64,000 nt of DNA from Betaproteobacteria bacterium Ga0077527 (lineage in GTDB: Bacteria; Pseudomonadota; Gammaproteobacteria; Burkholderiales; SG8-41): NCBI GenBank assembly GCA_001464815.1, contig LNDW01000021.1, positions 148,218 to 212,217 on the forward strand, written 5' to 3'. Positions 2,026-57,885 of the stretch are shown in pieces. The number at the start of each line of letters is the position of its first letter. The first letter of the stretch is position 1. The position numbers were made by a program, and so were the translations under genes. The notes under the pieces were generated by a model that saw only the letters and a program-made list of their open reading frames with translations, did not search any database and was not told where the DNA came from.

Positions 2026-2041
2026 TAAGCCATTGTTTTTA
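2026..2041 (+). promoter_or_regulatory. Recurrent intergenic AT motif, copy 1
   Basis: TAAGCCATTGTTTTTA lies 23 bases after the stop of the SnoaL gene and 71 bases before the TPR operon, oriented toward it. It is followed by more A/T sequence (AATAAATAAATTTTATA). It is one of nine copies of the same pattern in the window. Confidence 0.55.
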
Positions 2042-2112
2042 ATAAATAAATTTTATACACTGGGCGACCCTGCTCCAGTGCCGGCGTCCGATGGCGCCGA
2101 TGACCTTTCGCC

Positions 2113-4386
2113 ATGCCGAAATCCAAGTCCGAAAAACCGGTGAAAAAGCCCGCGGCTGCGAAGCGCGCGCCGGTTGCGGCGGCACCGGCTGCGGCGTTGC
2201 CGGTGCCGCTGGCGGTTGCGCCCATCGTGTCGCCTGCGTTTGCTACCGCCCCGGCTTATGCGCCGGTTTTCGCGCCCTCGGCAGCGCCTGCCGCCAGCGG
2301 AGATTCGGTATGGGAAATCTACCAGTCGGCACTGGTGGCCCAGCGCAGCGGCGACATGAAGACCGCGCGCGAGGGTTATCTGAAGGTGCTGCGCGCGAAT
2401 CCGAATGATTTCGACGTGCTGCACATGCTCGGTGTGCTCGAGACCCAGCAGAAGAATTACCCCGAGGCGCTGCGCCTGCTCAACGAAGCGCTGAAGCTTG
2501 ATCCCGAAAGCGCGCCGGTGCTCAACAACATCGGCGTCGCGCTGTGCGGCACCGGACGCCATGCCGAAGGCCTGCAAATGATGCAGCGCGCGCTGAAAAT
2601 CGAACCTGATTTCGCCGATGCCTGCGCCAACATGGGCCGCGCGCTGTGCGATTCCGGACGGATGGCCGAGTCGATGCCTTTTTTTGATCGCGCGGTGACC
2701 CTGGAGCCGGATATCGCGGACATGCATTTCCAGCGCGCGCTGGTGCTTGACAAGCTGATGCGCCGCGACGAGGCACTGATCGGCTACGACCGCGTGGTCG
2801 AGCTGAGCCCCGGCCACGCCGAGGCGCATTGCCGGCGCGGCCACCTTCTGGCCCATGCCAAACGTTTTCGTGATGCGCTGGTCAGTTACGACCGCGCGAT
2901 TTCCGCAAAAAACGACTACGCCGAGGCGCACTGCAACCGCGGCAACGCGCTGCGCCTGCTCGGCCATCTGCCCGAGGCGCTGGTCAGCGTCGACCGTGCG
3001 GTGGCGCTGCAGCCCGACATCGCCCAGGCCCACCGCATCCGCGGCGTGGTGCTGATGGGGCTCGCCAAATACGCGCAGGCGCTGGAGGCCTTTGACAAGG
3101 CGCTGGCGCTGAATCCGAAGCTGATCGAGGCGATCAACGACCGCGGCAACGCGCTGCGCCTGCTCGGACGGCTGGAAGAGGCGGTGGCGGCGCAGGAGGA
3201 GGCGGTGCGTCTCGCGCCCAATGCCTCGGCCGCCTACGCCAACCGCGCCGTGGCGCTGATGGACATCGGCCGCCCGGCCGGAGCGCTGGCCGACATGCAG
3301 CGCGCACTCGAACTGGCGCCGGACAATGCCGAATTCTGGAACCTGCGCGGCAATGCGCTGCAGGCGCTGAATCGCCACGCCGAGGCGCTGGGGGCCTACC
3401 AGCATTCGCTGAAGCTCGCGCCGGATTATGCGCAGCCTGAATTCAACATCAGCATGTGTACGCTGGTGCGCGGCGAGTTCGCGCAGGGCTGGTCCGGCTA
3501 CGAGGCGCGCTGGCGCACCGGGCAGCGCCTGGGTTTCATCAAGTTCCGCAAGCCGCAGTGGCAGGGTGAACAGGTCGGGGGCCGCATCCTCGCCTGGGGC
3601 GAGCAGGGCATCGGCGACCAGATTTTTCATCTGAGCATGCTTGAGTCGCTGCGCAAAAAGGCGCCGAACCTGCTGCTCGCGGTGGCGCCGCGGCTGATGC
3701 CGCTGGCGGAGCGCAGTTTTCCGGGCGTGAAGTTTGTGCCACTTGCCCGCGCCCAGCGCGAGCGCTGCGAGGTGCAGGTGCCGCTCGGCAGCATCGGCCG
3801 CTTCGTGCGCCGCTCCTGGCATGAATTCCCGCGCGAGCGCATGGCCTATCTGTATGCCGACGGGGCCAGGGTGCAGCAGTTGCGCGCGCGCCTCGGTGGC
3901 GGCCGCCAGCCGGTGGTCGGCATTTCCTGGCTGTCGCGCGCGGAGCGTTTCGGCGAACTCAAAAGCCTTCAGCTGATGGCACTGAAGCCGCTGCTGACCC
4001 GGCCCGGGCTGCGTTTTGTCGACATCCAGTACGGCAACACCGATGCCGAACGCGCCGCGGTTTGTGCGGAACTCGGCATCAGCATCGACCGCCTGCCCGA
4101 TATTGATCCGTACAACGACATGGACGGACTCGCCGCCCTGATCCGTGCCTGTGACCTGATCGTCACCACCAGCAACACCACTGCCCACCTTGCCGGCGCG
4201 CTCGGCGCGCCGACGTTGCTGATGCTGCCGTTTTCGAGCGGCCGCCACTGGTACTGGCATGAAGAGCGCAGCGACAGTCCCTGGTATCCGTCGATGAAGC
4301 TGTTCCGTCAGCGCGCGGTCGGCGACTGGTCCGATATCGCCGCCGAGGTCACCGCCGAAGTGGCGCAACGTATTCCCGCTGCATGA
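2113..4386 (+). CDS. TPR-repeat protein with GT9-like glycosyltransferase domain (paralogue 1)
   Basis: The 757-residue protein has a Lys/Ala/Pro-rich low-complexity leader (1-63), about twelve consecutive 34-residue TPR units (64-470; for example NRGNALRLLGHLPEALVSVD), and a C-terminal domain of about 270 residues resembling family 9 (heptosyltransferase-like) glycosyltransferases. Shared motifs are WGEQGIGDQIF, a GISWLSRAERF turn, an STTAHLAG-like NTTAHLAGALG nucleotide-sugar loop, and a terminal WYPSMKLFRQ. The architecture recalls O-GlcNAc-transferase-like enzymes, where the TPR superhelix presents a protein acceptor, but donor and acceptor here are unknown. It is the first gene of an operon: its stop overlaps the next start in ATGA. 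No signal peptide is seen, so cytoplasmic action is inferred. Confidence 0.85.
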   Translation: MPKSKSEKPVKKPAAAKRAPVAAAPAAALPVPLAVAPIVSPAFATAPAYAPVFAPSAAPAASGDSVWEIYQSALVAQRSGDMKTAREGYLKVLRANPNDFDVLHMLGVLETQQKNYPEALRLLNEALKLDPESAPVLNNIGVALCGTGRHAEGLQMMQRALKIEPDFADACANMGRALCDSGRMAESMPFFDRAVTLEPDIADMHFQRALVLDKLMRRDEALIGYDRVVELSPGHAEAHCRRGHLLAHAKRFRDALVSYDRAISAKNDYAEAHCNRGNALRLLGHLPEALVSVDRAVALQPDIAQAHRIRGVVLMGLAKYAQALEAFDKALALNPKLIEAINDRGNALRLLGRLEEAVAAQEEAVRLAPNASAAYANRAVALMDIGRPAGALADMQRALELAPDNAEFWNLRGNALQALNRHAEALGAYQHSLKLAPDYAQPEFNISMCTLVRGEFAQGWSGYEARWRTGQRLGFIKFRKPQWQGEQVGGRILAWGEQGIGDQIFHLSMLESLRKKAPNLLLAVAPRLMPLAERSFPGVKFVPLARAQRERCEVQVPLGSIGRFVRRSWHEFPRERMAYLYADGARVQQLRARLGGGRQPVVGISWLSRAERFGELKSLQLMALKPLLTRPGLRFVDIQYGNTDAERAAVCAELGISIDRLPDIDPYNDMDGLAALIRACDLIVTTSNTTAHLAGALGAPTLLMLPFSSGRHWYWHEERSDSPWYPSMKLFRQRAVGDWSDIAAEVTAEVAQRIPAA

Positions 4387-6206
4387 TGGGGGCTGCGCCG
4401 TCGCGTCCGCAGGCGGCGGCCATTTCCGCGCAACTGTCGCTGCAGTACAAATCGGCGCGCGAAGCTTTCGGCCGCGGCGATTTTGCCAAGGCGATCAGCA
4501 AGCTGCGCGGCATCATCGGCAAGGCGCCGGACCATGCCGATGCGCTGAACCTGCTCGGCATCATCGGCATGCAGGGCGGCCGCGCCGCCGAAGCCGAAGC
4601 GCTGTTCGCGCGCGCGGTGGCGGCGAATCCCGGTGAACCCGGTTTTTACAACAGCCACGCCAGCGCGCTGCACGCGCTGGGGCGCAGTGACGAAGCCATC
4701 GCCGCCTTCCGCGGCGCGCTGGCGATTGATGCCGATTACGCCGCCGCGCACCTCAACCTCGGCAAGCTGCTGCTGCGGCTGGGCCGCGGTGAAGAAGCGC
4801 TGCCACATTTTGCGCGGCTCAGTGAACTGCGGCCGGATGACGCGCCGGTGCATTTCGGGCACGGCGAGCTGCTCTATGCGCTGCGCCGTTTTGAACCCGC
4901 GGCTGCGGCTTTCCGGCGGGTGCTGGAATTGCAACCGGCCTATCCCGATGCGCGCTTTTGCCTCGGCAATGCGCTGTGGGGCGGCAAACAGGCCGGGGCC
5001 GCGCTGGCCGAGTATGGCGCGGTGATCGCGGCCGACAGCAAGGCCGCCGGTGCCTGGGCCAACCGCAGCGTGGTGCAGATTGATCTCGGCCGGCCGGCCG
5101 CGGCGCTGGCCGACATCGAAAGCGCGCTGCAGCTCAAGCCCGGCAACGCCGATTTCCACAACCTGCACGGCAATGCCCTGCATGCGCTGAACCGTCATCA
5201 CGAGGCGCGGCAGGCCTATGCCCGCGCGCTGCAGATTCAGCCGGCGCATGCCAATGCCCGTTTCAACACCGGGCTGTGCCATCTGGTCGAATGCGAATTT
5301 GCCGAAGGCTGGAACGATTACGAGGCGCGCTGGCGGACTTCGCTGAATCTCGGTCGCATCGACACCACGCTGCCGGAATGGGATGGCCAGCCGACGCAGG
5401 CGCGGCTGCTGGTCTGGGGCGAACAGGGCATCGGCGACCAGATTCTGCAGCTGAGCCTGGCCGATGCCGTGGCACAGCGCGCGCCGCAGGCGGAGTTCGC
5501 GGTGATGCCGCGGCTGCTGGCGCTGGCACGGCGCAGTTACCCGCAACTGCAGTTCACCGGATTGAACGAGCTGGCCAACAGCGGCTGCACCGTGCAGAAA
5601 GCTTTCTGGAGCACCGGCGCGCTGGTGCGGCGCAGCCTGGATGATTTTCCGCGCCAACGTGCAGCCTTTCTGCAGGCCGACCCGCTGCGGGTTGCGGCAC
5701 TGCGCCAGCGGGTGTCCGGCGATGAGCGGCCGGTGATCGGCCTGGCCTGGCACAGCCGCGCGGTGCTCTACAGCCGCCTGAAAAGCATGCCGCTGAAAAC
5801 ACTGATGCCGCTGCTTGCGGACAAACGTTACCGCTTTGTCGATCTGCAGTACGGTGATACCGCGGCGGAGCGTGAGGCCTTGCGTGGCGTCGCGACACTG
5901 CAGCGGCTGGATGACATTGATCCAATCAAGGACATCGACGGTCTGGCGGCATTGGTCCGTGCCTGTGACATGGTGGTGACCATCAGCAATTTCACCGCGC
6001 ATCTTGCCGGTGCGCTGGGTGTGCCGACGCTGCTGATGCTGCCCTGGTCCACCGGACGGCAGTGGTACTGGCATGACAATCGAACCAGCAGCCCATGGTA
6101 CCCGCGGCTTTCGATCCTGCGCCAGAGTGAACCGCTGCGCTGGGATGACGTGATCGAACGCGTCTGTGCCGAAGTGCCGCGCATGCTCGCCGGAGCAGGC
6201 CGATGA
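4383..6206 (+). CDS. TPR-repeat protein with GT9-like glycosyltransferase domain (paralogue 2)
   Basis: This 607-residue paralogue of the preceding gene lacks the long Ala/Pro leader and has about nine TPR units (14-320) before the same C-terminal domain (WGEQGIGDQIL, GLAWHSRAVLY, NFTAHLAGALG, WYPRLSILRQ). The shorter TPR array suggests a different acceptor from the same catalytic chemistry, which is an inference. Start and stop overlap the neighbours by four bases (ATGA) on both sides, so the three genes are almost certainly co-transcribed and translationally coupled. Long open frames on the opposite strand here are codon-composition shadows. Confidence 0.85.
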   Translation: MMGAAPSRPQAAAISAQLSLQYKSAREAFGRGDFAKAISKLRGIIGKAPDHADALNLLGIIGMQGGRAAEAEALFARAVAANPGEPGFYNSHASALHALGRSDEAIAAFRGALAIDADYAAAHLNLGKLLLRLGRGEEALPHFARLSELRPDDAPVHFGHGELLYALRRFEPAAAAFRRVLELQPAYPDARFCLGNALWGGKQAGAALAEYGAVIAADSKAAGAWANRSVVQIDLGRPAAALADIESALQLKPGNADFHNLHGNALHALNRHHEARQAYARALQIQPAHANARFNTGLCHLVECEFAEGWNDYEARWRTSLNLGRIDTTLPEWDGQPTQARLLVWGEQGIGDQILQLSLADAVAQRAPQAEFAVMPRLLALARRSYPQLQFTGLNELANSGCTVQKAFWSTGALVRRSLDDFPRQRAAFLQADPLRVAALRQRVSGDERPVIGLAWHSRAVLYSRLKSMPLKTLMPLLADKRYRFVDLQYGDTAAEREALRGVATLQRLDDIDPIKDIDGLAALVRACDMVVTISNFTAHLAGALGVPTLLMLPWSTGRQWYWHDNRTSSPWYPRLSILRQSEPLRWDDVIERVCAEVPRMLAGAGR

Positions 6207-8365: not shown

Positions 8366-8381
8366 GTTTGCCTCCTGCGGT

Positions 8382-10169: not shown

Positions 10170-10210
10170 GGCGGGCTCAGTACAGGATGGCTGGTTGAGT
10201 GAAAACTTTT

Positions 10211-11206: not shown

Positions 11207-11226
11207 GATTTTCCTCCGGATTGATA

Positions 11227-11242
11227 TAAGTAATTGTTTTTA
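11227..11242 (+). promoter_or_regulatory. Recurrent intergenic AT motif, copy 2 (reversed relative to flanking genes)
   Basis: TAAGTAATTGTTTTTA, a perfect consensus copy, lies between the DctM stop and the hydrolase start. Both genes run on the minus strand while the motif reads on the plus strand, so this is the only copy pointing away from its downstream gene. Confidence 0.5.
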
Positions 11243-11246
11243 TTAA

Positions 11247-12689
11247 CTATTTTTGTTCACGTAGCAGGCGTTCGATTTCAGCGGTCGACTTGTTGTCCTG
11301 GCTCTCGGATGTGTTTTCCTGCGGCGGCAGCGTGATCTCGATGGCGGGATTGCCGGCCGCCGGCTGTTCACGCAGAACACTGACCAGCTGTGGGTAGCAC
11401 ACCACCAGAAGCAGCGCCAGCAACTGCACGCCGACGAAGGGCAGGATGCCGCGGTAGATGTCCGCGGTCTTGATCTGTGGTGGTGCCACGCTGCGCAGGT
11501 AGAACAGCGACAGGCCGAAGGGCGGCGTCAGGAAGGAGGTCTGCAGGTTCAAGCCGATCATCACGCCGAACCACACCGGGTCAATGCCGAGCTTCACCGC
11601 CACCGGTGCCAGCAGCGGCAGCAGGATGAAGGCGATCTCGAAAAAGTCGATGAAAAATCCGAGCACGAACACCATCAGGGTGACAACGGCCAGGAAGCCG
11701 ATCTCGCCGCCGGGCACCAGGTTGAACAGGCGCTCCACCCAGAGGTCGCCATCGACGGCGCGGAACACCAGCGCGAACACCGTCGAACCGATCAGGATGA
11801 ACATCACGAAGCAGGAGAGTCTGGTGGTGGCATCCAGCGCCTCGCGCAGCATCTTCAGATTGAACCGGCCCTTCACCGCCGCGAGCAGCAGCGCGCCGAT
11901 CGAGCCCAGCGCGCCACCCTCGGACGGTGTGGTGATGCCGGCGAACAGCGAGCCGAGCACCACCAGGATCAGCGTCAGCGGCGGCACCATCACCAGCAGC
12001 GCGTGGCGCCACAGCGCGGCGCCGCGCAGGGTGCGCGCTTCCGGCGGCAGCGCCGGTGCCGCGGCCGGATTAAACAGCGTGACCATGAACACATAGGTCA
12101 TCAGCAGCCCGACCAGGATCAGGCCCGGCAGCAGCGCGCCGGCATAGAGGTCGCCGACGGAAGCGCCAAGCACATCGGCAAGCACGATCAGCACGATCGA
12201 CGGCGGAATGATCTGCGCCAGCGTGCCCGAGGCGCAGATCACGCCGCTGGCGAGCCGCGGCGAATAGCGGTAGCGCATCATCACCGGCAGCGAGATCAGT
12301 CCCATCGCGATCACCGAGGCGGCGATCACGCCGGTGGTCGCGGCGAGCAGCGCGCCGACCACGATCACCGCATAGGCCACACCGCCGCGCAGCGGGCCGA
12401 AGATCTGGCCGACGGTGTCGAGCAGGTCTTCGGCCATGCCGCTGCGCTCGAGCACCAGGCCCATGAAGGTGAAAAACGGAATCGCCAGCAGCAGCTGATT
12501 CGACATGATGCCGAACAGCCGCTGCGGCAGCGCCTGCAGCAACTCCGGTTGCAGCAGGCCCATCTCGAAGCCGATGAAGGCAAAGAGCAGGCCGTTGGCT
12601 GCGAGTGCAAAAGCCACCGGGTAGCCAAGCAGCAGGAATACCGCGAGCCCGGCGAACATCAGCGGTGCCATCAGCTCCATTGCCATCAC
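11247..12689 (-). CDS. TRAP transporter large permease subunit (DctM-like)
   Basis: The 480-residue, very hydrophobic protein has the DctM layout of about 12-13 membrane segments, with typical stretches such as IPFFTFMGLVLERSG and ASGTLAQIIPPSIVLIVLAD. It forms the sodium-driven channel subunit of a TRAP transporter for organic acids. The last ~45 residues are hydrophilic (ENTSESQDNKSTAEIERLL), an extension beyond the usual end. A GTG start overlaps the DctQ stop (GTGA), with an ATG one codon later, so the two subunits are coupled. No periplasmic DctP gene is adjacent, so the binding protein must lie elsewhere or be lost. Confidence 0.92.
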   Translation of the reverse strand: MMAMELMAPLMFAGLAVFLLLGYPVAFALAANGLLFAFIGFEMGLLQPELLQALPQRLFGIMSNQLLLAIPFFTFMGLVLERSGMAEDLLDTVGQIFGPLRGGVAYAVIVVGALLAATTGVIAASVIAMGLISLPVMMRYRYSPRLASGVICASGTLAQIIPPSIVLIVLADVLGASVGDLYAGALLPGLILVGLLMTYVFMVTLFNPAAAPALPPEARTLRGAALWRHALLVMVPPLTLILVVLGSLFAGITTPSEGGALGSIGALLLAAVKGRFNLKMLREALDATTRLSCFVMFILIGSTVFALVFRAVDGDLWVERLFNLVPGGEIGFLAVVTLMVFVLGFFIDFFEIAFILLPLLAPVAVKLGIDPVWFGVMIGLNLQTSFLTPPFGLSLFYLRSVAPPQIKTADIYRGILPFVGVQLLALLLVVCYPQLVSVLREQPAAGNPAIEITLPPQENTSESQDNKSTAEIERLLREQK

Positions 12690-18427: not shown

Positions 18428-18455
18428 GTCGCTGGATTTACTCCGGCATTAATCA

Positions 18456-18471
18456 TAAGTAATTGTTTTTA
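18456..18471 (+). promoter_or_regulatory. Recurrent intergenic AT motif, copy 3
   Basis: TAAGTAATTGTTTTTA, a perfect consensus copy, starts 28 bases after the ribH stop and ends 43 bases before nusB, pointing at nusB. AAAGGAAAAAAAT follows. Confidence 0.55.
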
Positions 18472-18514
18472 AAGGAAAAAAATCATACCGTTTGTTGCGG
18501 CATGAAATGAAACG

Positions 18515-28527: not shown

Positions 28528-28538
28528 CGGAAAATTTA

Positions 28539-28554
28539 TAAGTATTTGTTTTTA
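28539..28554 (+). promoter_or_regulatory. Recurrent intergenic AT motif, copy 4
   Basis: TAAGTATTTGTTTTTA starts 11 bases after the pncC stop and points toward recA. It is followed by a perfect palindrome ATTGAAT-TTTTT-ATTCAAT (28554-28572). Unlike most copies it is far (209 bases) from the next start codon, upstream of the LexA box. Confidence 0.5.
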
Positions 28555-28592
28555 TTGAATTTTTTATTCAATGAGTGGTTTTTTACACACTA

Positions 28593-35731: not shown

Positions 35732-37117
35732 TCAGAAGGGCAGCGTCGCATCCGGTTTGAGCGCAAGCAGTGCCGAGCGAAACTCGCCCTGAATACGCCG
35801 CAGCGCGGTTTCATCATCGGCTTCGAAACGCAGCACGATGATCGGCGTGGTGTTTGACGGCCGCGCGAGACCGAAACCGTCGGCGTATTCCACGCGCAGG
35901 CCGTCGATTCTGATGATGTCTTTCGCGGCCGGGAATTTCGCGGTTTTTTGGAGCTGCTCCATCAACGCGTAGTTTTCACCCTCGCTGAGCTGCCATTGCA
36001 GTTCCGGCGTGCTCACCGAGTCGGGCAGGGCTTCGAGCACGGCCGAGGGGTTGTCGCCGCGGCTGAGGATTTCGAGCAGGCGTGCCCCCGCATACAGGCC
36101 GTCGTCAAAGCCGTACCAGCGTTCCCTGAAAAAGATGTGCCCGCTCATTTCCCCTGCAAGCGGCGCGCCGGTTTCGCGCAGTTTCTGCTTGATGAAGGAA
36201 TGCCCGGTCTTCCACAGCAGCGGCTTGCCGCCGTGTTCGCGGATCCAGCCGAACAGGTGGCGCGTACACTTCACGTCGAAAATGACCTCGCCGCCGGGCA
36301 CACGCGACAGCACGTCGGCGGCGAACAGCATCAGCTGGCGGTCGGGATAGATGATTTTTCCGGATCGGGTGACCACACCGAGGCGGTCACCGTCGCCGTC
36401 GAAGGCGAGCCCGAGCTCGGCATCACCCTGGCGCAGCGCCGCGATCAGGTCTTCAAGGTTGTGCGGCTGCGAGGGATCGGGGTGGTGGTTGGGAAATGTG
36501 CCATCGACTTCGCAGAACAGTTCCTGCACCGTGCAGCCGAGCCGGCGGTACAGCTCCGGCGCGGTGGCGCCGGCTACGCCGTTGCCGGCATCAACCGCGA
36601 TGTGCATCGGCCGCGCGAGCTTGAGCGTGGAGACAATGCGCTCGAGGTAGGCGGCGCGGATATCGTGCGTACGGTATCCGCCGCTGCCGTTGTCGAGCCG
36701 GTTGTCGGTGAGTCGCGCGCGTAAAGCCTGGATGGTTTCACCGGCGAGGGTTTCGCCGGCCAGCATCATCTTCAGGCCGTTGTACTGCGGCGGATTGTGC
36801 GAGCCGGTGACCATTACGCCGGACAGCGTGTCCAGTTCATGTGCCGCGAAGTAGAGCATCGGTGTCGCTACCTGACCGACATCGATGACATCAACGCCGG
36901 CGGACTGCAGGCCGCGCGCCAGCGCCGCGGCCAGTGCCGGTCCCGACAGCCGGCCGTCGCGGCCGATGACCACGCTGCTGCGTCCGCGTGCCCGTGCTTC
37001 GCTGCCGATGGCGCGGCCGATCTGTTCGACGCCGGCTTCGGTCAGCGTGTCGCCGACGATGCCGCGGATGTCATAGGCCTTGAAGATTCCCGGTGGTGGC
37101 AGTTTGGTGTCGGGCAT
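35732..37117 (-). CDS. Phosphomannomutase/phosphoglucomutase
   Basis: The 461-residue alpha-D-phosphohexomutase interconverts hexose 6- and 1-phosphates (mannose and/or glucose) for nucleotide-sugar synthesis, relevant to the glycosyltransferases in this window. The phosphoserine is S106 in VMVTGSHNPP; the metal loop is AFDGDGDRLGV; the sugar-binding GEMSGHIFF and C-terminal phosphate-binding RPSNTTP are present. It resembles AlgC-type enzymes in length and motifs. A copy of the recurrent AT motif lies 37 bases upstream of its ATG. Confidence 0.93.
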   Translation of the reverse strand: MPDTKLPPPGIFKAYDIRGIVGDTLTEAGVEQIGRAIGSEARARGRSSVVIGRDGRLSGPALAAALARGLQSAGVDVIDVGQVATPMLYFAAHELDTLSGVMVTGSHNPPQYNGLKMMLAGETLAGETIQALRARLTDNRLDNGSGGYRTHDIRAAYLERIVSTLKLARPMHIAVDAGNGVAGATAPELYRRLGCTVQELFCEVDGTFPNHHPDPSQPHNLEDLIAALRQGDAELGLAFDGDGDRLGVVTRSGKIIYPDRQLMLFAADVLSRVPGGEVIFDVKCTRHLFGWIREHGGKPLLWKTGHSFIKQKLRETGAPLAGEMSGHIFFRERWYGFDDGLYAGARLLEILSRGDNPSAVLEALPDSVSTPELQWQLSEGENYALMEQLQKTAKFPAAKDIIRIDGLRVEYADGFGLARPSNTTPIIVLRFEADDETALRRIQGEFRSALLALKPDATLPF

Positions 37118-37154
37118 GGTTTGAAATACCGAGTGATGAGTATAAAATAATCAA

Positions 37155-37170
37155 TAAAAACAATAACTTA
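37155..37170 (-). promoter_or_regulatory. Recurrent intergenic AT motif, copy 5
   Basis: On the minus strand this reads TAAGTTATTGTTTTTA; its first three bases are the TAA stop of the YheT-like gene. It points toward the phosphomutase gene 37 bases further on. Confidence 0.55.
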
Positions 37171-38166
37171 GGTATTATACCCGAGTGAATCGAGAAATTC
37201 GATGACAGCCTGCGGCAACCAGCCCAGCCCGCCGCGGGGATCGGGGAATCCGACATGGCCGCCGGTCTGCGGAAACACTGCCGTGATTGCCGGAGACAGC
37301 ATTGCTGTCACCGGAAGTGCTGTGCCGGGCAGGAAGGGATCGTTGCGCGCATTGAGCAGCAGCGTCGGCACCGCAATCGACTGCAGCAGCGGCTTGCTGC
37401 TGGCACGGGTGTAGTAGTCATCGACGTTGCGAAAGCCGTGCAGCCTTGCGGTGACCAGATCGTCGAATTCGCGCAGCGTGCGCGAAGCCTGCAATTTTGT
37501 GATGTCGAACAATCCGGGGTGTTGCGCCAGCTTGAGCAGTGATTTGCGTTTCATCGTCGCCAGGAAGTTGCGCGTGTAAATCATGTTGAAGCCAAGCTCC
37601 AGCGCATTGGCCGCGGCGTGCAGGTCCAGCGGCGCCGAGATCGCCGCGGCGCGGTGGACCACGGCCGCAGCCGCCGCGCCCTGTTCACCCAGCCATTTCA
37701 GCAGCGCGTTGCCGCCGAGCGATACCCCGGTGGCATGGATCGGACCATCATGTGCGGCGCGCAACCGGCGCAGGACCCAGTCGATTTCGGCGCTGTCGCC
37801 GGAATGGTAGGCCCGCGGCAGGCGATTGATTTCACCGCTGCAGCCGCGAAAGTGCGCAACCACGCCATGCCAGCCGCGCCTCGCGGCCGCATCCATCAGC
37901 GCCCTCGCGTAGTGACTGTTCGAGCTGCCTTCAAGCCCGTGGAACAGCACCAGCAGCGGTTTCCGGTCCGGCTCAATCCTCAATCCCCGATCCTGAAGTT
38001 CAGTCCAGTCGAGATCGATGAAATCGCCGTCGGGCGTGTCCCAGCGCTCACGCCGGTAGTACAGGCGCGGCCGCGGCGCGAGCAGGGCCGGATAGAGGGT
38101 TTGCAGATTGCCACCGGGCAGCCAGGGTGGTGCGCGGTAGTCCAGAGCGGTGGGCATGGTCGCCAT
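37168..38166 (-). CDS. YheT-family alpha/beta hydrolase
   Basis: The 332-residue protein belongs to the YheT/EMB8-like alpha/beta hydrolases: RAPPWLPGGNLQTLYPAL at the N-terminus, VLFHGLEGSSNSHYAR, VVAHFRGCSGE, and the nucleophile elbow GVSLGGNALLKWLG, with a late VTAMLSPAITAVFPQTGGHVG supplying the catalytic histidine. Family members are esterases of unclear substrate. The start at 38166 (MATMPTALDY) is preferred over a frame extending to 38232 that would cross the terminator; 38157 is an alternative. No strong ribosome binding site is seen. Confidence 0.88.
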   Translation of the reverse strand: MATMPTALDYRAPPWLPGGNLQTLYPALLAPRPRLYYRRERWDTPDGDFIDLDWTELQDRGLRIEPDRKPLLVLFHGLEGSSNSHYARALMDAAARRGWHGVVAHFRGCSGEINRLPRAYHSGDSAEIDWVLRRLRAAHDGPIHATGVSLGGNALLKWLGEQGAAAAAVVHRAAAISAPLDLHAAANALELGFNMIYTRNFLATMKRKSLLKLAQHPGLFDITKLQASRTLREFDDLVTARLHGFRNVDDYYTRASSKPLLQSIAVPTLLLNARNDPFLPGTALPVTAMLSPAITAVFPQTGGHVGFPDPRGGLGWLPQAVIEFLDSLGYNT

Positions 38167-47895: not shown

Positions 47896-47904
47896 TGCTA
47901 GAAT
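47896..47904 (+). promoter_or_regulatory. Extended -10 promoter element upstream of yhdP
   Basis: TGCTAGAAT is a TGn-extended -10 (TAGAAT 47899-47904), 24 bases before the AT motif and 72 before the ATG. Confidence 0.4.
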
Positions 47905-47927
47905 GGCCGGGCTGCTCAGGGTTGTTC

Positions 47928-47943
47928 TAAGTCATTGTTTCAG
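47928..47943 (+). promoter_or_regulatory. Recurrent intergenic AT motif, copy 6 (imperfect)
   Basis: TAAGTCATTGTTTCAG matches the first 13 bases of the pattern; the T-tract is interrupted and resumes as TTTTATATTTTATTATTTTTTT. It points toward yhdP, 32 bases before the ATG. The preceding gene (glnE) is divergent, so this copy does not follow a stop codon. Confidence 0.45.
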
Positions 47944-47975
47944 TTTTATATTTTATTATTTTTTTGAACCCGCGC

Positions 47976-50900
47976 ATGAGCGTAGACGAAGTGCGTCGCC
48001 GGCTGCAGAACAGCACCCTGCTGATTTATCGCGTGCTGACCTGGCTGGTGCTCGGATGCGGCCTGCTGTTCGCTGCCGTGATTCTTGCGCTGCGCTACTG
48101 GATTCTGCCCGACATTGGCGAGCACCGTGAGGCCATTGCCCTGGCGCTGAGCCGCGGCGCGACGCAAAACATCAGCATAGGCGCCATCAGCGCCAACTGG
48201 GATGGACTGCGGCCCCAGCTCGCCCTGTCCAAGGTGGTGGTGCATGACGCCGAAGGGCGCCCGGCGCTGGAATTGCCGCGGGTCGATGCCACATTGTCTT
48301 GGCGCTCTCTGTTGTTGTTCCAGGTCAATTTCCACTCGCTGGACATCCATCGTCCCCAGCTGCAGGTACGCCGCGACAGCGCTGGCCGGATCACCGTGGG
48401 TGGTGTCGCCGTGGAAGGCGCCGGACAGGGGGATGGCGCGTTCTCGGAATGGCTGCTCAGCCAGCGCGAAATTGAAATTTTCGATGCCGCGCTGGACTGG
48501 CACGACGAGATGAGGGCGGCCCCGGTTCTTGAGTTGCGCAAGGTGCAACTGCGCATCGTCAACAGAGGCGGGCGCCATCGTTTCGCGCTGAGCGCGCAGC
48601 CGCCGCAGGCAATTTCCGCGCCGCTGGACCTGCGTGCCGACCTGCGTGGCGAGGACTGGTCCGAACTGACCGGACGCATGAACGGGCAGTGGTATGTTCA
48701 TGTCGCCAGCATCGACATCGCGGCATGGCGGCAATGGGTCGATTTTCCGGTGCAGATGAGCCAGGGCAGCGGAGCCCTGCGTGCCTGGATGACTTTTGCC
48801 GATGGCAAGATGCAGGCCGGCACCGCCGATGCCGAGTTGCGCGATGTGCGGGCGAGGCTGGCCACCAACCTGCCCGAACTCGACCTGCGGCAGATGGGCG
48901 GGCGGTTGGGTTTGAAACGCACACCCGGCGGCTTTGAACTCAACGCGCGCCGTCTCGGTTTCATCACCGGCGACAATCTGGCGCTGCCGCCGGCTGACAT
49001 CAGCCTGCGACTGTCGGGCGGCGGCAGTGATTACACCCGCGGCGAACTGCAGGCAACCTCACTCGATCTGGCGCCGCTGGTTACGCTGGCCGACCGCCTG
49101 CCACTGCATGCCGGATTCCGCGGCGCGCTCGAAGCCTATTCCCCTGGCGGTGGTGTGCATGACCTCAGCGTCAAGTGGGACGGCGCGTGGCCGGACCTGA
49201 AGACCTACAGCCTGCGCGGACGTTTTAACGAACTGTCGTTGCGTCGCCACGGTAACTGGCCCGGATTCACCGGTTTCAGCGGCAACATCGACGGCAACGA
49301 GCGCGGCGGCAACCTTAATGTGAGCAGCCAGCGGGCGGTGCTTGATCTGCCCAGGGTGTTTCGCGAGCGCTTGCAGTTTGATTCACTGACCGGCCAGCTC
49401 GGCTGGACACGCCAGCCCGGCGGCATCGAGCTGCGCTTCGGTAATTTCGCCTATGCCAACAGCGATCTTGCCGGCACCCTGTTCGGCAGCTTTCGCACGG
49501 CTGCCGATGGCCCCGGGGTGGCTGACCTTACCGGTCACCTGACCCGTGGCGTGGCGCGCCGCGTCACCGATTACCTGCCGCTGCAAGTGGCGCAAACCTC
49601 GCGCGGCTGGCTTGACCAGGCGTTTACCGCGGGCAGTTCGAACGACGTACGTTTCCGGGTGAAGGGTGACCTGCGCGATTTCCCTTTTGCCGGTGAAAAG
49701 GCTGGTGTGTTTGAGGTTGCGGCCAAAATGCAGGACGGCACCCTGAATTATGGCGAGGGCTGGCCGCGCATCTCTGGTATCGACGGTGACCTGCTGTTCC
49801 GTGGTCAGCGCATGGATATCAATGTCCGCCAGGCGATGATCGGCGATGTCCGGCTGTCCAGGGTGCGCGCGCAGATTCCCGACCTGGTGCACCATGAGGA
49901 GGTGCTGGATGTCAGCGGTGAGGCCGAGGGGCAGACCGCGGACTTCCTGCAATTCATCGCGCAAAGTCCGGTGCGCGGCATGATCGACGGCTTCACCGAC
50001 GGCATGCAGGCCCAGGGCCGCGGCAAGCTCGGCCTGAAGCTCACACTGCCGCTGCGCAGACTGAAGGCCGGCAAGGTTGCCGGCAACTATCAGTTCATCA
50101 ATAACCAGCTTACGCCCGAACCCGGCTTTCCGCCGCTGGAGCAGGTCAACGGCAGACTCGAATTTACAGAATCCATGGTGCGTGTGCCGGGCGCCACCGC
50201 GCAGTTCCTCGGCGGGCCGCTGACGGTGTCCGCCGGCAGCCAGCGCGACGCCGCGGTGAGCATCCAGTTCCAGGGGCGGATCAATGCCGATGCCGCGCGC
50301 CGCGCCGGCAACAACATTGAATGGCTGCGCCACATCCGCGGTGCCACCGACTGGCGCGGCACGCTGACCCTGCGCAACAAGCGCACCGATTTTGTCATCG
50401 ACTCTTCGTTGCAGGGCCTCGCCGTCAGCCTGCCGGCACCGTTCGCCAAGTCCGCCGCGGAGACATTGCCGCTGCGCGTTGAACGGCGGTTCACCGGCGC
50501 GCAGCAGGAGCGGCTGGCGTTTTCGCTGGGCAACGTGACCAACGGCGTGCTGCTGCGCCGGTCCCAGGGCGGCGAACTGCGCATCGAGCGCGGCACGGTG
50601 CGTTTTGGCGAAGGCCTTGCCACCGAACCGGACCGCCCCGGCCTGCAGCTCGGCGGTTCGATCCGCCAGCTCGATGCCGATGGCTGGATCGCGCTGCTCG
50701 GCAAGGACAGCGGAGGTGCCGGCAGCCTGCCGGTCACCGCCGATCTGCGCATCGGCGAGCTGGAGTGGTTCGACCGCCGCTTCAGCGCGATCGCGGTGAC
50801 CGCGACTCCTCAGCCCGGCGTGGTGCAACTGACACTGAAGGGGCGCGAGGTCGAGGGGGCTGCATCCTGGCGCGGCCAGGGTCGCGGGCGCGTCACCGCG

Positions 50901-51824: not shown

Positions 51825-52135
51825 TCCGTTGCTGCGTTTTTTTCATGGGGCTGTTTGCCGGCTCAGCCGCCGCCGCTGAACTGCCGCCCGAGCTGTGGGA
51901 TCGTCCGCGTACTGCGCAGGCGATACTCGCGCAGCCGCAGTTGCGTGCCGCGGTGGAGCGCCTGCAGGCGCGGCCGGTGGCGCGGCTTGAACTGGTGCAC
52001 GGCAACCGTGCCGAGACCAGGGCTCAGGCCGAGGAACTGCGGGCCTGGCTGGTGGCGCTGGCGGTGGACCCATCGCGGCTGCAACTGCGCGCCGATAACG
52101 CGGCAGCGGGACTGCGGCTGGAGTTTGTTGAGTGA
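51821..52135 (+). CDS. Small exported protein coupled to yhdP
   Basis: The 104-residue product has a signal peptide (MIRCCVFFMGLFAGSAAAA, cleavage after AAA-E near residue 19). The mature part is an Ala/Leu/Arg-rich, mainly helical ~85 residues (ELVHGNRAETRAQAEELRAWL...DPSRLQL), recalling short OmpA-like periplasmic repeats but without a firm match. The start overlaps the yhdP stop by four bases, so it is probably made together with YhdP and exported to the same compartment. Confidence 0.65.
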   Translation: MIRCCVFFMGLFAGSAAAAELPPELWDRPRTAQAILAQPQLRAAVERLQARPVARLELVHGNRAETRAQAEELRAWLVALAVDPSRLQLRADNAAAGLRLEFVE

Positions 52136-52233
52136 ATGTCGCATTTAAAGGACCCGATGGACGGGATGGGCGGGATTTAAGACCGGACGCGAATTAACCG
52201 CTGCAGTGACGAGACAAAAGGGAGTGATTCACC

Positions 52234-53100: not shown

Positions 53101-53109
53101 TTTTATTCA

Positions 53110-53125
53110 TAAGTAATTGTTTTTA
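53110..53125 (+). promoter_or_regulatory. Recurrent intergenic AT motif, copy 7
   Basis: TAAGTAATTGTTTTTA, a perfect consensus copy, starts nine bases after the nit stop and ends 11 bases before the tldD TTG. It runs straight into the ribosome binding site AAAGGA. Confidence 0.55.
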
Positions 53126-53136
53126 AAGGAATAATT

Positions 53137-54579
53137 TTGCAATCCGCGAATGTCTTTGAAACCGCCAGTGCGACCCTGCTGGCACCGCATGCTCTCGACG
53201 AAGCGCGGCTGCAGCGGGTATTCGGCGAAATCATGGCGCACCGCGTTGATTACGCCGATCTTTATTTCCAGTATTCGCGCAGCGAGTCGTGGAGCCTCGA
53301 AGAGGGCATCGTCAAATCCGGCAGCTTCAACATCGACCAGGGCGTCGGTGTGCGCGCGGTGAGTGGTGAAAAAACCGCCTTCGCCTATTCCGACGACATC
53401 AGCTTCAACGCACTGAGCGCGGCGGCGCAGGCGACGCGGGCGATCGCGCGCCAGGGCGGCGAAGGCCGCACGGCCGTGGCGCGCCAGGGTGAACTGCGTG
53501 CGCTGTATGCGCCGCAGGATCCGCTGGCCAGCCTTGGCGCGCCGGAGAAGGTGGCGCTGCTCGAGCGGCTGGAGCGCAAGGCGCGGGCCATCGATCCGCG
53601 GGTGACGCAGGTGATGGCTTCACTCGCCGGCGAATACGAGGTGGTGATGGTCGCGCGCAGTGACGGCGTGCAGGCTGCAGACGTGCGGCCGCTGGTGCGG
53701 CTGTCGCTGCAGGTGATCGTCGAGTCCGGCGGGCGCCGCGAGCAGGGCAGTGCCGGCGGTGGCGGCCGTTTTGATTACGCTTATTTTGACGACGCGATAC
53801 TCGATGATTTTGCGGCGAAGGCCGTGCAGCAGGCGCTGACCAATCTTGATGCGCGGCCGGCACCTGCCGGCACGATGACCGTGGTGCTCGGGCCGGGCTG
53901 GCCCGGCGTGCTGCTCCATGAGGCGGTGGGGCACGGGCTCGAGGGCGACTTCAACCGCAAGGGCACATCGGCGTTCAGCGGCCGCATCGGTGAACGTGTT
54001 GCGGCGCGCGGTGTGACCGTGGTCGACGACGGCACGCTGGAACGGCGCCGTGGCTCGCTCAATGTGGATGACGAAGGCAACCCGACGCAGCACAACGTGC
54101 TGATCGAGGACGGCGTGCTGCGCGGCTACATCCAGGACACGCTCAATGCACGGCTGATGAAGGTGGCGCCCACCGGCAATGGCCGCCGCGAGTCCTATGC
54201 CCATGTGCCGATGCCGCGGATGACCAACACCTACATGCTCAATGGCGACAAGGACCCGCAGGAGATCATCGCCTCGGTCGACCGCGGTCTGTATGCGGTC
54301 AACTTCGGCGGCGGCCAGGTCGACATCACCAGCGGCAAATTCGTGTTTTCGGCTTCTGAAGCCTTCATCATCGAAAACGGCAAGCTGACCCATCCGGTGC
54401 GCGGCGCGACACTGATCGGCAACGGCCCCGACGCATTGACCCGGGTCTCGATGATCGGCAACGACATGCGCCTCGATCCGGGCGTGGGCACCTGTGGCAA
54501 GGAAGGCCAGAGCGTGCCGGTGGGTGTGGGCCAGCCGACGTTGCGCATTGATGGCTTGACCGTCGGCGGCACGGTCTGA
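53137..54579 (+). CDS. tldD: Metalloprotease TldD
   Basis: The 480-residue protein has the TldD zinc motif HEAVGH (H261, E262, H266) followed by [10 protein letters not shown]. With TldE it degrades unfolded peptides and matures microcin B17 and CcdA-like substrates; a tldE/pmbA partner is not in the window. The TTG start is preferred because AAAGGA (53125-53130) lies six bases upstream. It is downstream of nit and upstream of aroG, with copies of the recurrent motif in both gaps. Confidence 0.94.
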
Positions 54580-54604
54580 CCGGTGACCGGCAATCGTTTA
54601 TAAT
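54576..54604 (+). promoter_or_regulatory. Predicted promoter of aroG
   Basis: CTGACC (54576-54581) and a perfect TATAAT (54599-54604) are 17 bases apart. The -10 box overlaps the first bases of motif copy 8. Confidence 0.45.
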
Positions 54605-54616
54605 GCATTGTTTTTA
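54601..54616 (+). promoter_or_regulatory. Recurrent intergenic AT motif, copy 8
   Basis: TAATGCATTGTTTTTA starts 21 bases after the tldD stop and points toward aroG, 26 bases before its ATG. Its opening TAAT overlaps a -10 TATAAT. Confidence 0.5.
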
Positions 54617-54642
54617 AAGAACTTAGGGAAAGCCATTCAGTC

Positions 54643-55713
54643 ATGTTGCACCGTACCGACGACCTGCGGATCAAGGAAATCAAGGAACTCGCACCTCCCA
54701 TTCATTTGCTGGGCGAGATTCCGCTGACCGAAAAAGCCGCCGACACCACCTTCCAGGCACGCCAGGACATCCACCGCATCCTGCACGGCGCCGACGACCG
54801 CCTGCTGGTGATCATGGGCCCGTGCTCGGTGCACGACGTCAAGGCCGCCAGGGAATACGCCGGCAAGCTGCTGGAAGCAAAGAAAAAATTCGCCGCCGAA
54901 CTGCTGGTGGTGATGCGCGTGTATTTCGAGAAGCCGCGCACCACCGTCGGCTGGAAGGGGCTGATCAACGACCCCAAACTCGACGGCAGCTTCCAGATCA
55001 ACGAGGGCCTGCGTGTCGCGCGGCAGTTGCTGCTCGAACTCAACGAGACCGGCATGCCGGTCGGTTGCGAGTTCCTCGACATGATCACGCCGCAGTACAT
55101 CGCCGACCTGGTGTCCTGGGGTGCCATCGGCGCGCGTACCACCGAATCGCAGATCCACCGCGAGCTCGCCTCGGGCCTGTCCTGCCCGGTGGGCTTCAAG
55201 AACGGCACCGACGGCAACATCAAGATCGCGATTGACGCGATCCGCGCGGCGCAGGCGCCGCACCATTTCCTGTCGGTGACCAAGGCCGGCCATTCCGCCA
55301 TCGTCTCCACCACCGGCAACGAGGACTGTCATGTCATCCTGCGCGGCGGCAAGGCGCCGAATTACGACGCGGCGAATGTCGATGCCGCGGGCAAGGGCCT
55401 GGCCGAGGCCGGCATCCCGGCGCGGATCATGATTGACTTCAGCCACAGCAACAGCAGCAAGAAACCGGAAAAGCAGGTGGACGTGGCCAAGGATGTCGCC
55501 GGGCAGGTGGCCGCGGGTGACGAGCGCATTTTCGGCGTGATGGTGGAAAGCCACCTCAAGGCCGGACGTCAGGATCTGGTTCCGGGCAAGCCGCTGGCCT
55601 ATGGCGTCAGCATCACCGACGGCTGCATCGGCTGGGACGAAAGTCGCGGCGTACTCGAAGACCTCGCTGAGGGCGTGCGCAAGCGCCGCCTCAACGCGGT
55701 GAGCAAGGACTGA
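54643..55713 (+). CDS. aroG: 3-deoxy-7-phosphoheptulonate synthase, class I
   Basis: The 356-residue class I DAHP synthase condenses phosphoenolpyruvate and erythrose 4-phosphate, the first step of aromatic amino acid synthesis. Motifs are VIMGPCSVHDVKAA, RVYFEKPRTTVGWKGLINDP, the GARTTESQ substrate loop, GTDGNIKIAIDAI and a C-terminal MIDFSHSNSSK. The AroF/G/H subtype, and so which amino acid inhibits it, cannot be told reliably. It lies downstream of tldD with a promoter and the AT motif in the gap. Confidence 0.94.
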   Translation: MLHRTDDLRIKEIKELAPPIHLLGEIPLTEKAADTTFQARQDIHRILHGADDRLLVIMGPCSVHDVKAAREYAGKLLEAKKKFAAELLVVMRVYFEKPRTTVGWKGLINDPKLDGSFQINEGLRVARQLLLELNETGMPVGCEFLDMITPQYIADLVSWGAIGARTTESQIHRELASGLSCPVGFKNGTDGNIKIAIDAIRAAQAPHHFLSVTKAGHSAIVSTTGNEDCHVILRGGKAPNYDAANVDAAGKGLAEAGIPARIMIDFSHSNSSKKPEKQVDVAKDVAGQVAAGDERIFGVMVESHLKAGRQDLVPGKPLAYGVSITDGCIGWDESRGVLEDLAEGVRKRRLNAVSKD

Positions 55714-55768
55714 GCGCCGGACATCGCTTCCGGCGCCAGCAACGGATTTCGCGCAAAGGCGGACCACT

Positions 55769-56341
55769 ATGGCACTGGACATGGACATGCAGGATGACGC
55801 CGCCGAGGTCGAGCGGGCACCAGCCTCGGACCAGGGCAACCTCGAGAAGCTCGAGCGCGTCGGTGCGGGTACCGCGATCGCCGCAGAGATTTTCGGGCTG
55901 GTCGGCAAGTCGCAGTTCTTCACCGAATTCTCGCGCGAGGACATTTCGACCATGGCCGGCTACATGGAGGTCTTTCGCGCGCTGCCCGGCGAGATCATCA
56001 TCCGCGAGGGCGACGAGGGCGACTTCATGCTGCTCATCGTCGGCGGGGAGATCGACATCCTCAAGAAAAACCACCGCGGTGAGCAGCAGCACATGACCAC
56101 CTCCGGCCCCGGCATGACGCTGGGCGAAATGTCGATGATCGACGGAGAGCCGCGCTTCGCCACCTGCATGGCCTCGCAGCCGACCACCTTCGCCGTGCTC
56201 ACCCGCGACAACATGGCCAAGATCATCCTTGACCATTCCGGCCTCGGCTCGAAGATCCTGGTCAAGATGGTGACCATGCTCTCGCTGCGCCTGCGCCAGA
56301 CCAGCGCGCGCCTGCTGCGCTACATGGCGGAGCCGCGCTGA
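55769..56341 (+). CDS. Cyclic nucleotide-binding domain protein
   Basis: The 190-residue protein has a CAP-type cNMP-binding domain (about 35-150): a LPGEIIIREGDEGDFMLLIVGGEIDIL core and the phosphate-binding cassette GMTLGEMSMIDGEPRFATC with the ligand-contacting Glu and Arg. There is no DNA-binding helix-turn-helix at the C-terminus, only a helical tail (LSLRLRQTSARLLRYMAE), so it is a protein-level effector rather than a CRP-like regulator. It could respond to cAMP from the cyclase encoded 11 kb upstream, which is an inference. Confidence 0.85.
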   Translation: MALDMDMQDDAAEVERAPASDQGNLEKLERVGAGTAIAAEIFGLVGKSQFFTEFSREDISTMAGYMEVFRALPGEIIIREGDEGDFMLLIVGGEIDILKKNHRGEQQHMTTSGPGMTLGEMSMIDGEPRFATCMASQPTTFAVLTRDNMAKIILDHSGLGSKILVKMVTMLSLRLRQTSARLLRYMAEPR

Positions 56342-56391
56342 TCCTCGATGGCTTCGGCCGGCGGCTGCAGCAGTCACGGCCTGTTTTTCCA

Positions 56392-57285
56392 ATGAAAATC
56401 CTCTGGAGTTGCGCCGCGCTTGCGCTGTGCGGGCTGACGGCTGCGGCTCCGTTACGCGCGGCGCCGGTCGAGGCCACCGATGCGCGCGGCCGCACTGTCC
56501 GCCTCGCGCAGCCGGCGCAACGCATCGTCACCCTCGCACCACATCTGACCGAACTCGCTTTCGCCGCAGCGGCGGGCGACCGTGTCGCGGGCGTCGCGCG
56601 CTTCAGCGATCATCCGCCCGAGGCACGCCGCCTGCCGGTGGTCAGCGACGCGCTGCATTTCGACCTCGAACGCATGCTCGCGCTGCGTGCCGACCTGGTG
56701 CTGGCCTGGGACAGCGGCACCCCCAACGAAGCCATCGCGCGCATCGAACGCGCGGGGTTGCCGGTGTTCGTCGCCGCGGCGGGGCGCCTTGATGACATCG
56801 CCGCCAACCTCGCGGCCATTGCGCGGCTCGCCGGCCGCACGGAAGAAGCGCGGTCCCGGAGCGAGGCGTTCACCGCCGGGCTGGCCGCGCTGCGCCAGCG
56901 CCGCAGCGAAGGCAAGCCGCCGCGCGTGTTCTACGAAATCTGGGACCGCCCGCTGATGACGGTGAGCGACCGCCACCTCATCGGCGAGATCATCGCGCTG
57001 TGCGGCGGCGTCAACGTCTTTGGCGGCGAGCGTCCGTTGACGCCGGAAGTCTCGCGCGAGGCGCTGATCGCCGCACGCCCCGACCTCGTGCTCGGCGGCA
57101 CCTCGGCTGATCGCCCGCAGGATTTCGCCGCGCGCTGGCGCGTATTGCCGCCGCCGATGAACCGCTGGCCCGCGCACTACATCGCGGCCGATCTCATCCA
57201 GCGGCCGACGCCGCGCATCCTCGAAGCGGCGCGGCAGGTGTGTACGCAGCTAGATGCCATACGCGCGAGCCGTCAGCCGTATTGA
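56392..57285 (+). CDS. Periplasmic cobalamin-binding protein (BtuF-like)
   Basis: The 297-residue protein has a signal peptide (CAALALCGLTAAAPLRA) and the two-lobed helical-backbone binding fold: RIVTLAPHLTELAFAAAAGDRVAGVARFSDHPPEA...LPVVSDALHFDLERMLALRADLVLAW, and FYEIWDRPLMTVSDRHLIGEIIALCGGVNVF, characteristic of BtuF-like proteins that deliver vitamin B12 or other corrinoids to BtuCD. No BtuC/BtuD genes are nearby. The neighbouring adenosyltransferase (minus strand) supports a cobalamin role. No cobalamin riboswitch is evident in the ~50-base gap upstream. Confidence 0.82.
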   Translation: MKILWSCAALALCGLTAAAPLRAAPVEATDARGRTVRLAQPAQRIVTLAPHLTELAFAAAAGDRVAGVARFSDHPPEARRLPVVSDALHFDLERMLALRADLVLAWDSGTPNEAIARIERAGLPVFVAAAGRLDDIAANLAAIARLAGRTEEARSRSEAFTAGLAALRQRRSEGKPPRVFYEIWDRPLMTVSDRHLIGEIIALCGGVNVFGGERPLTPEVSREALIAARPDLVLGGTSADRPQDFAARWRVLPPPMNRWPAHYIAADLIQRPTPRILEAARQVCTQLDAIRASRQPY

Positions 57286-57303
57286 TGCCGGCGGTGATGC
57301 TTG

Positions 57304-57858
57304 TCAGATCCGGTTGCGTCCCTGCTGCCAATGCACATCGCCGCCGCCGGCGGCGCGGTTGAGCACGCGCGCGAGCACGAACATCAGGTCGGACAGGCGG
57401 TTGAGGTATTGCCGCGGCAGCGGTGGCAGGGGTTCGCCGCGGTCGAGCGCGACCACGCTGCGTTCGGCGCGGCGGCACACGGTGCGCGCGACATGGGCCA
57501 GTGACGCGGCGCGGCTGCCACCGGGCAGGATGAATTCCTTCAGCGGCGGCAGTCCGGCGTTGAAGGTTTCGATCAGGCCGTCAAGTCGCGCGAGGTGTGC
57601 GTCGCTGACCAGCGTATGGCCGGGCAGGCTCAGTTCACCGCCGAGATCGAACAGGTCGTGCTGGATGCCTTCCAGCGCATCACGCACCGCGGGCGGCAGG
57701 GTTTCGCTGAGCAGCAGGCCGAGCGCGCTGTTCAGTTCATCGACATCACCCATTGCCGCCACCCGCGGTTCGTGTTTGCCGATGCGGGTGCCGGTGGACA
57801 GCCCGGTGCTGCCGTCGTCACCGGTGCGGGTGACAATTTTGGAGAGTCGATTGGCCAT
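57304..57858 (-). CDS. Cob(I)alamin adenosyltransferase, PduO type
   Basis: The 184-residue protein matches PduO-type ATP:cob(I)alamin adenosyltransferases: ATP-binding TRTGDDGSTGLSTGTRIGKHEPRVAAMGDVDELNSALG at the N-terminus, the FILPGGSRAASLAHVARTVCRRAERSVV core, and NRLSDLMFVLARVLN. It attaches the 5'-deoxyadenosyl group to cobalamin. It is convergent with the BtuF-like gene. A variant of the AT motif precedes it by 12 bases. Confidence 0.94.
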   Translation of the reverse strand: MANRLSKIVTRTGDDGSTGLSTGTRIGKHEPRVAAMGDVDELNSALGLLLSETLPPAVRDALEGIQHDLFDLGGELSLPGHTLVSDAHLARLDGLIETFNAGLPPLKEFILPGGSRAASLAHVARTVCRRAERSVVALDRGEPLPPLPRQYLNRLSDLMFVLARVLNRAAGGGDVHWQQGRNRI

Positions 57859-57870
57859 AAATTTATGTTT

Positions 57871-57885
57871 TAAAAAAATTACTTA
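57871..57885 (-). promoter_or_regulatory. Recurrent intergenic AT motif, copy 9 (variant)
   Basis: On the minus strand this reads TAAGTAATTTTTTTA, lacking the G of TTG. It starts six bases after the stop of the SulP gene and ends 12 bases before the adenosyltransferase ATG, pointing at it. Confidence 0.45.

Follow-up and report, generated by a model that had tools for sequence, protein, structure and literature searches.

The window studied here, a stretch of 64,000 nucleotides from Betaproteobacteria bacterium Ga0077527 (contig LNDW01000021.1, positions 148,218 to 212,217), carries copies of a short repeat, TAAGTNATTGTTTTTA, in several of the gaps between its genes. These copies belong to a genome-wide family of elements with an A/T-rich footprint, which match the consensus of the IHF protein, are conserved in three orthologous gaps, lie mostly at the 3′ ends of genes and are neutral with respect to strand. 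We conclude that the repeat is probably a genome-wide family of dedicated sites for IHF, the IhfA/IhfB dimer, and estimate the probability of this reading at about 0.76. It is highly probable that IHF itself is the ligand of the element. That the bent site serves as a boundary at gene ends is a tentative proposal, to which we would give somewhat less than even odds.

The genome that holds the window (G000; 3.42 Mb in 26 contigs, 91% complete) contains 57 exact copies of the motif, against 0 for the reversed pattern, and at up to two mismatches the counts are 292 and 18. With a loose pattern, TAANNNNTTGWTTTWAWW, in which the motif spacer is left free and two further bases may be A or T, 301 matches were found versus 0 reversed. 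An earlier note, which had described nine copies in the window, had named A/T-rich spacer composition as a possible source of such numbers; with reversed-pattern controls near 0, the excess is not one of composition. Alignment of 34 of the 57 exact sites delimited an A/T-rich element of ~38 bp, which, counted from the first T of TAA, spans about −9 to +28; over the range −40 to +85, no column outside these limits was conserved. The layout is TAA-NNNN-TTG-W-TTTTA, followed by an A/T-rich stretch. Read on the opposite strand, it consists of an A-rich stretch and WA(T/A)CAANNNNTTA, i.e. WA(A/T)CAA, four bases and TTA. Sites with one mismatch (40 fetched out of at least 43) have the same shape: the changes G3 to C or A, T4 to C, A6 to T and T10 to A are tolerated, and TTG and the T-run are fixed. 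Two element copies (among L007, L027, L014 and L018) have a CTCTGTG-CTCTGTGGCT-type repeat directly upstream, and L014 and L018 have in common a GGGAGAGGG-rich stretch upstream of the element.

Counts of TAANNNNTTGWTTTWAWW show how far the family extends among relatives. The 21 genomes of the genus have 85 to 331 matches each (4440 in total, with 0–1 in each reversed control), and in the sister genera the counts are 627 in G025, 663 in G028 and 688 in G034 (0 reversed in the latter). Genus g7 has 47 and 43, G021 has 16, and the other 10 genomes of the family have 0–1; over 24 genomes of other families, 61 matches were obtained versus 9 reversed. A canonical pattern, made of the E. coli IHF consensus and the T-run and containing no letters from the motif spacer, was scanned over 61 genomes. 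It yielded 312 matches versus 3 reversed over the 21 genus genomes, 169 versus 0 in G034, 37 versus 3 in G028, and 31 versus 9 over the 24 genomes of other families. G017 and G034 have 0 exact copies of the motif; with the canonical pattern, G034 ranks first of the 61 genomes and G017 (32 versus 1) first of the genus. The A form TAAGTNWTTGATTTWA, with A after TTG, occurs 442 times in G034 and 25 times in G025, the T form TAAGTNATTGTTTTTA 0 and 194 times, respectively. Among 50 listed sites of the 85 of G017, 28 begin with TAAC and 44 have TTGA. In G034 and G017 the A form is the commoner one, in G025 and among the strict copies of G000 the T form; from one lineage to another, the preferred sequence changes as a set. 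In G080, a member of another family, 6 of 13 pattern matches are an identical sequence, TAATGCATTGTTTTAAAA, perhaps a separate small repeat. Even chromosomal spacing was looked for with 82 spacings on contigs C1–C16 of G025, and gave a coefficient of variation of 0.75 versus 0.87 for the simulated null (P = 0.027), a signal not strong enough to be used.

All three gaps examined within the genus have kept their sites, a point on which the earlier note had considered that its repeat might fail. At up to two mismatches, and G000 included, the element was found upstream of tldD in 19/19, of the phosphomutase gene in 19/20 and of nusB in 16/16 genus genomes with upstream sequence. For tldD, no locus of G003 or G017 was among those listed, and for the phosphomutase gene none of G003; for nusB, G002, G003 and G010 were without a match, and the sequence upstream was too short in G011 and G012. 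In the 54 orthologous sites, the first base is T in 48 and C in 6, A follows at the second and third positions in 54 and 53, and the letters of TTG are found in 52, 54 and 54. The four spacer positions (3–6) vary between genomes, the commonest letter reaching 54–74%. The base after TTG is A in 18 sites and T in 36, and the letters of TTTTA (positions 11–15) are present in 52–54. Positions 21–25 are 98–100% A/T, with T at position 25 in 52/54, and the sequence stays A/T-rich to about +28; the bases flanking the element do not hold across orthologous gaps. At 11 of the 19 phosphomutase loci of the genus with the element (window 37100–37180, L324–L343), the start codon directly follows the T-run; no Shine-Dalgarno sequence is visible in these loci, and a TANAAT-like box is often found just upstream.

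PMC10380432 gives the E. coli IHF consensus as TAAnnnnTTGATW (reverse complement WATCAAnnnnTTR). The 54 orthologous sites have its YAA-4-TTG core, the Y at the first base being the complement of the R in TTR, and the A/T-rich flank of the element lies on the WATCAA side, as in IHF sites. Across the orthologous sites, the drifting positions are mainly those that IHF leaves free. Within G000, these IHF-free spacer bases are biased. The earlier note had taken the T after TTG as an objection to IHF; this objection loses much of its force, as relatives show A or T at that position. The element is like an E. coli IHF site in its fixed and free positions and in its flank, and its host has IhfA and IhfB. 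Unlike E. coli sites, it occurs in hundreds of near-identical copies per genome, varies between T and A at one consensus base according to lineage, and has a preferred TAAGT start in G000.

Searches with the Pfam DNABII family gave two matches in G000. Of its 20 congeners, 13 likewise have two, 2 have three, 4 have one and 1 has none (draft genomes). The matches of G000 (L194 and L195), G017 and G025 are IhfA and IhfB (NCBIfam NF001401 and NF001222, above cut-off), and the nearest solved relatives of the two G000 proteins are IHF chains, e.g. 1ihf. No HU gene was found among the DNABII matches, named by NCBIfam, of G000 (91% complete), G017 and G025. G029, from another genus of the same family, has IhfA, IhfB and a third protein closest to HU models, below their cut-offs. 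Loss of HU as the cause of the element was rejected; it is at most permissive, because G023 and G031, with two DNABII matches, have few copies. It seems to us rather unlikely, if worth stating, that in these apparently HU-less hosts IHF has taken over as the main chromatin protein, with a dedicated array of ~100–700 single, co-evolving gene-end sites setting gene boundaries by topological insulation or as a two-way transcription stop; the array would then be a sequence-encoded chromatin mark of gene ends in a bacterium.

The position of the element relative to genes was analysed for 102 sites of G000 (57 exact, 40 with one mismatch and 5 window variants), with neighbours called by a simple coding model. 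Between codirectional genes, 40 sites point with the genes and 29 against them; convergent genes flank 18 more and divergent genes 9, with 4 falling in predicted open reading frames (ORFs) and 2 at edges, the 4 in ORFs and the 2 without a left neighbour being outside the 69 codirectional sites. Of these 69, 55 are nearer to the upstream stop, 13 to the start, and 1 is tied (P = 2.7×10−7), with median distances of 16 bases to the stop versus 56 to the start. In G034 (54 distinct sites in 55 rows, L283 and L284 being one site), the stop is the closer end for 18 of the 24 codirectional sites. Gene context in G017 was left out, 14 of its 15 loci being without neighbours; it is unusable because the gene model, taken from a 64% GC genome, is unsuited to its 50% GC loci. 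The strand split is 42:42 over the 84 gene ends that have the element, among 235 ends examined. The earlier note had described the copies as aimed at the next gene, which, on these numbers, was a small-sample effect. In some gaps the stop codon is formed by the element's TAA or by the TTA at its far end (distance −3), and in several gaps with a nearby start codon the flank is AAAGGA or similar, a ribosome-binding site. For IHF in another bacterium, PMC7826290 expects divergent regions to draw the protein more than convergent ones, an expectation that the element family does not follow.

Because the element is placed behind genes, in either orientation, and conserved in place, an architectural site acting at the DNA level is the best reading. 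IHF would bind the ~38 bp site and bend the intergenic DNA sharply, and the bend would sit mostly right behind the stop codon, in either orientation. The bent site may then mark or insulate gene ends, as a boundary of topology or transcription, along the lines proposed for the enterobacterial RIBs. Boccard and Prentki reportedly described in 1993 these RIBs, the nearest known counterpart of the element, as IHF-bound repeats at the 3′ ends of genes; like them, the element consists of repeated IHF-type sites behind genes. IHF sites are usually regarded as degenerate and are studied singly. Several related genera with hundreds of stereotyped IHF-type sites would moreover allow a comparative test of the co-evolution of a nucleoid protein and its sites, and such a comparison could also address the role of the sites at gene ends and whether IHF can replace HU. 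What was an unexplained repeat would thus offer a case in which joint change of a chromosome-folding protein and its sites can be put to the test.

BIME-1 has an IHF-binding sequence between two REPs (PMC2817692), and a review presents BIMEs as candidate barriers between supercoil domains (PMC6907758). REP and BIME sequences are, as the element, intergenic and present in hundreds of copies; unlike RIBs and BIMEs, the element is a lone site which is not palindromic, has no conserved flank and no palindromic REP units, and its host belongs to a distant betaproteobacterial group. Table 2 of PMC6907758 prints WATCAANNNNTTR for H-NS and a different sequence for IHF, and the two entries look as if they had been exchanged. 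Literature searches, in which the motif's own letters were not searched, found no account of this element family. To judge by these searches, the element appears to be new as a lone IHF-type site without REP/BIME palindromes, in hundreds of near-identical gene-end copies with a lineage-specific consensus.

A number of observations weigh against dedicated IHF sites at gene ends. Occupancy by IHF, like the function of the sites, is inferred. Most strict copies in G000 are without the T of WATCAA (T form 57, A form 43, the A-form pattern being more degenerate), the strict canonical consensus pattern gives 6 matches versus 1 reversed in this genome, and the uniformity of the sites within a genome goes beyond what the IHF consensus demands. 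G023 and G031 have two DNABII matches, yet contain 0–1 copies of the element. The orthologous sites were picked by pattern at up to two mismatches, which favours fixed letters, and 43 of the 54 are full matches to the loose pattern. Outside the genus, the element was present in 2/11 tldD loci (G025 and G028), 1/10 phosphomutase loci (G028) and 1/12 nusB loci (G025); as background, 52 of 3000 random 150-base stretches from loci of other genera and families match at up to two mismatches, an overestimate since the pool includes the element-bearing G025 and G028 loci. For the weaker window copy at 57870, 5 named relatives were searched over the 200 bases preceding pduO, without regard to whether SulP is the neighbour there, and no match at up to two mismatches was found. 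As to placement, the nearer-stop result depends on a home-made gene finder, and stands at 48/67 and 47/62 under stricter settings. In G034, 7 of the 54 distinct sites are inside predicted ORFs, and 10 are convergent versus 11 divergent, so that the convergent excess of G000 (18 versus 9) is not repeated. A separate observation concerns the nusB gap of G025 (L383): in this sister genus the element is present there in the opposite orientation.

The alternative that survives best overlaps with the IHF reading, and we hold it to be improbable: the bound and bent site would act as a bidirectional roadblock, halting RNA polymerase behind genes and substituting for hairpin terminators. Hairpin-plus-T terminators were indeed found at 5 of 26 convergent ends with the element versus 19 of 44 without it, and some convergent gaps hold little besides the element (in L005, 3 bases on one side and 4 on the other). 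However, the convergent difference is not significant (Fisher P = 0.067) and could reflect lack of room, codirectional ends show no effect (6/58 versus 16/107, P = 0.48), and several sites are in short codirectional gaps, where genes may be co-transcribed.

It is less likely still that the element is bound by a lineage-specific protein other than IHF, its likeness to the consensus being convergent. The spacer is over-uniform in G000 (57 copies with TAAGT, and G3 in 31 of the 40 one-mismatch sites), and T is more frequent than A after TTG in the strict copies of this genome. Across genomes, however, IHF-free positions drift and IHF-fixed ones hold, including the Y at the first base; the A/T-rich flank is on the side expected for IHF, and the only two proteins of G000 found in the DNABII family survey are IhfA and IhfB.

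The earlier note had left three options, an architectural-protein site, a part of a promoter and a transcript-processing site, of which the first has been strengthened and the other two have lost ground. The promoter and processing readings are unsupported because there is no strand preference and 18 of the 102 sites are between convergent genes. A promoter part belonging to the downstream gene, or a signal for it at the RNA level (leader, processing or translation element), would account for the 7 of 9 window copies that point to the next gene, for the phosphomutase gap, where the TANAAT-like box is often 5′ of an element that runs into the start codon, and for the copy at 54601, which overlaps a conserved TATAAT. 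Such a signal is nevertheless largely refuted by the orientation data (42:42 over gene ends, and 40:29 between codirectional genes, P = 0.23), and we consider it very improbable. The promoter reading was rejected on this absence of strand preference and on the absence, in the 34 aligned exact sites, of any conserved column beyond the element. Finally, a very small mobile repeat, or a by-product of A/T-rich composition in the spacers, suggested by many copies that are mostly intergenic and A/T-rich, is hardly credible, given reversed-pattern controls of 0–1 per genus genome, a similarity that ends at about −9 and +28, and orthologous copies that keep their places as the spacer drifts, a pattern not expected of fresh copying.

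In the window itself, nine matches to TAAGTNATTGTTTTTA were found at up to three mismatches, versus 0.07 expected, and 0 of 100 dinucleotide-preserving shuffles reached nine; all the places and strands listed in the earlier note were recovered. Their grouping as one family stands for six firm members (2026, 11227, 18456, 28539, 37155 and 53110), each a full match to TAANNNNTTGWTTTWAWW, and less well for a seventh at 57870; 54601 and 47928 are doubtful members (Table 1). Copies 11227, 18456, 53110 and 37155(−) have no mismatch to the motif. The stop of a same-strand gene does precede 7 of the 9 copies, at −3 to 28 bases, as had been claimed, and the YheT-like gene at 37155(−) confirms that the first TAA of one motif is itself a stop codon. 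NCBIfam family searches agree with the gene pairs named previously, the SnoaL-like gene only below the cut-off of that family. The tldD protein has its nearest named relatives in MAGs labelled Betaproteobacteria or Burkholderiales, in part under misleading names, and the host is probably an uncultivated betaproteobacterium. A search of the window against Rfam at gathering scores gave 0 matches, and a position weight matrix for the window was dropped, reversed-control scores of up to 37.8 leaving weak sites without separation.

Table 1. Copies of the repeat in the window (window positions; core in brackets).
Feature	Position	Strand	Context	Remarks
IHF-type element	2017..2054 (core 2026-2041)	+	3′ of SnoaL-like gene, 5′ of TPR gene	0 mismatches to TAANNNNTTGWTTTWAWW
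IHF-type element	11218..11255 (core 11227-11242)	+	dctM-family stop (11247) / alpha/beta-hydrolase gap	Orientation opposite to both genes
IHF-type element	18447..18484 (core 18456-18471)	+	ribH/nusB gap	In 16/16 genus genomes with upstream sequence (own included)
IHF-type element	28530..28567 (core 28539-28554)	+	pncC stop 11 bases before; recA next	
IHF-type element	37142..37179 (core 37155-37170)	-	YheT-like gene stops at the element's first TAA; phosphomutase gene next	In 19/20 genus genomes (own included)
IHF-type element	53101..53138 (core 53110-53125)	+	nit/tldD gap, reaching into the tldD ribosome-binding site	In 19/19 genus genomes (own included) and sister-genus G025 and G028
Weaker IHF-type element	57857..57894 (core 57870-57885)	-	SulP / cobalamin adenosyltransferase gap	TTG changed to TTT; 1 mismatch to loose pattern
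Doubtful member	54601..54618	+	Upstream of aroG	Full pattern match, but overlaps TATAAT
Doubtful member	47928..47945	+	yhdP leader	3 mismatches to motif, 2 to loose pattern

The two doubtful members are best excluded from the family. For 47928, a similar sequence with 1–2 mismatches was found in 6 of 11 named relatives having such a yhdP leader. In four named relatives (L032, L036, L039 and L042) a TARAAT box lies three bases 5′ of the YAA....TTG sequence of this leader, and in the window (47900–47976) the box and the YAA....TTG sequence are not adjacent. L039 has the yhdP-leader sequence, and no other copies were seen in its 9.6 kb. The copy at 54601 is probably explained by a promoter-like box of aroG rather than by the repeat: the TATAAT upstream of aroG is present in 19/19 examined genus genomes, and the bases after the box change. 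At the corresponding place (window 54590–54640), TATAAT is followed by a CATTG-like stretch upstream of aroG in the same 19/19 genomes.

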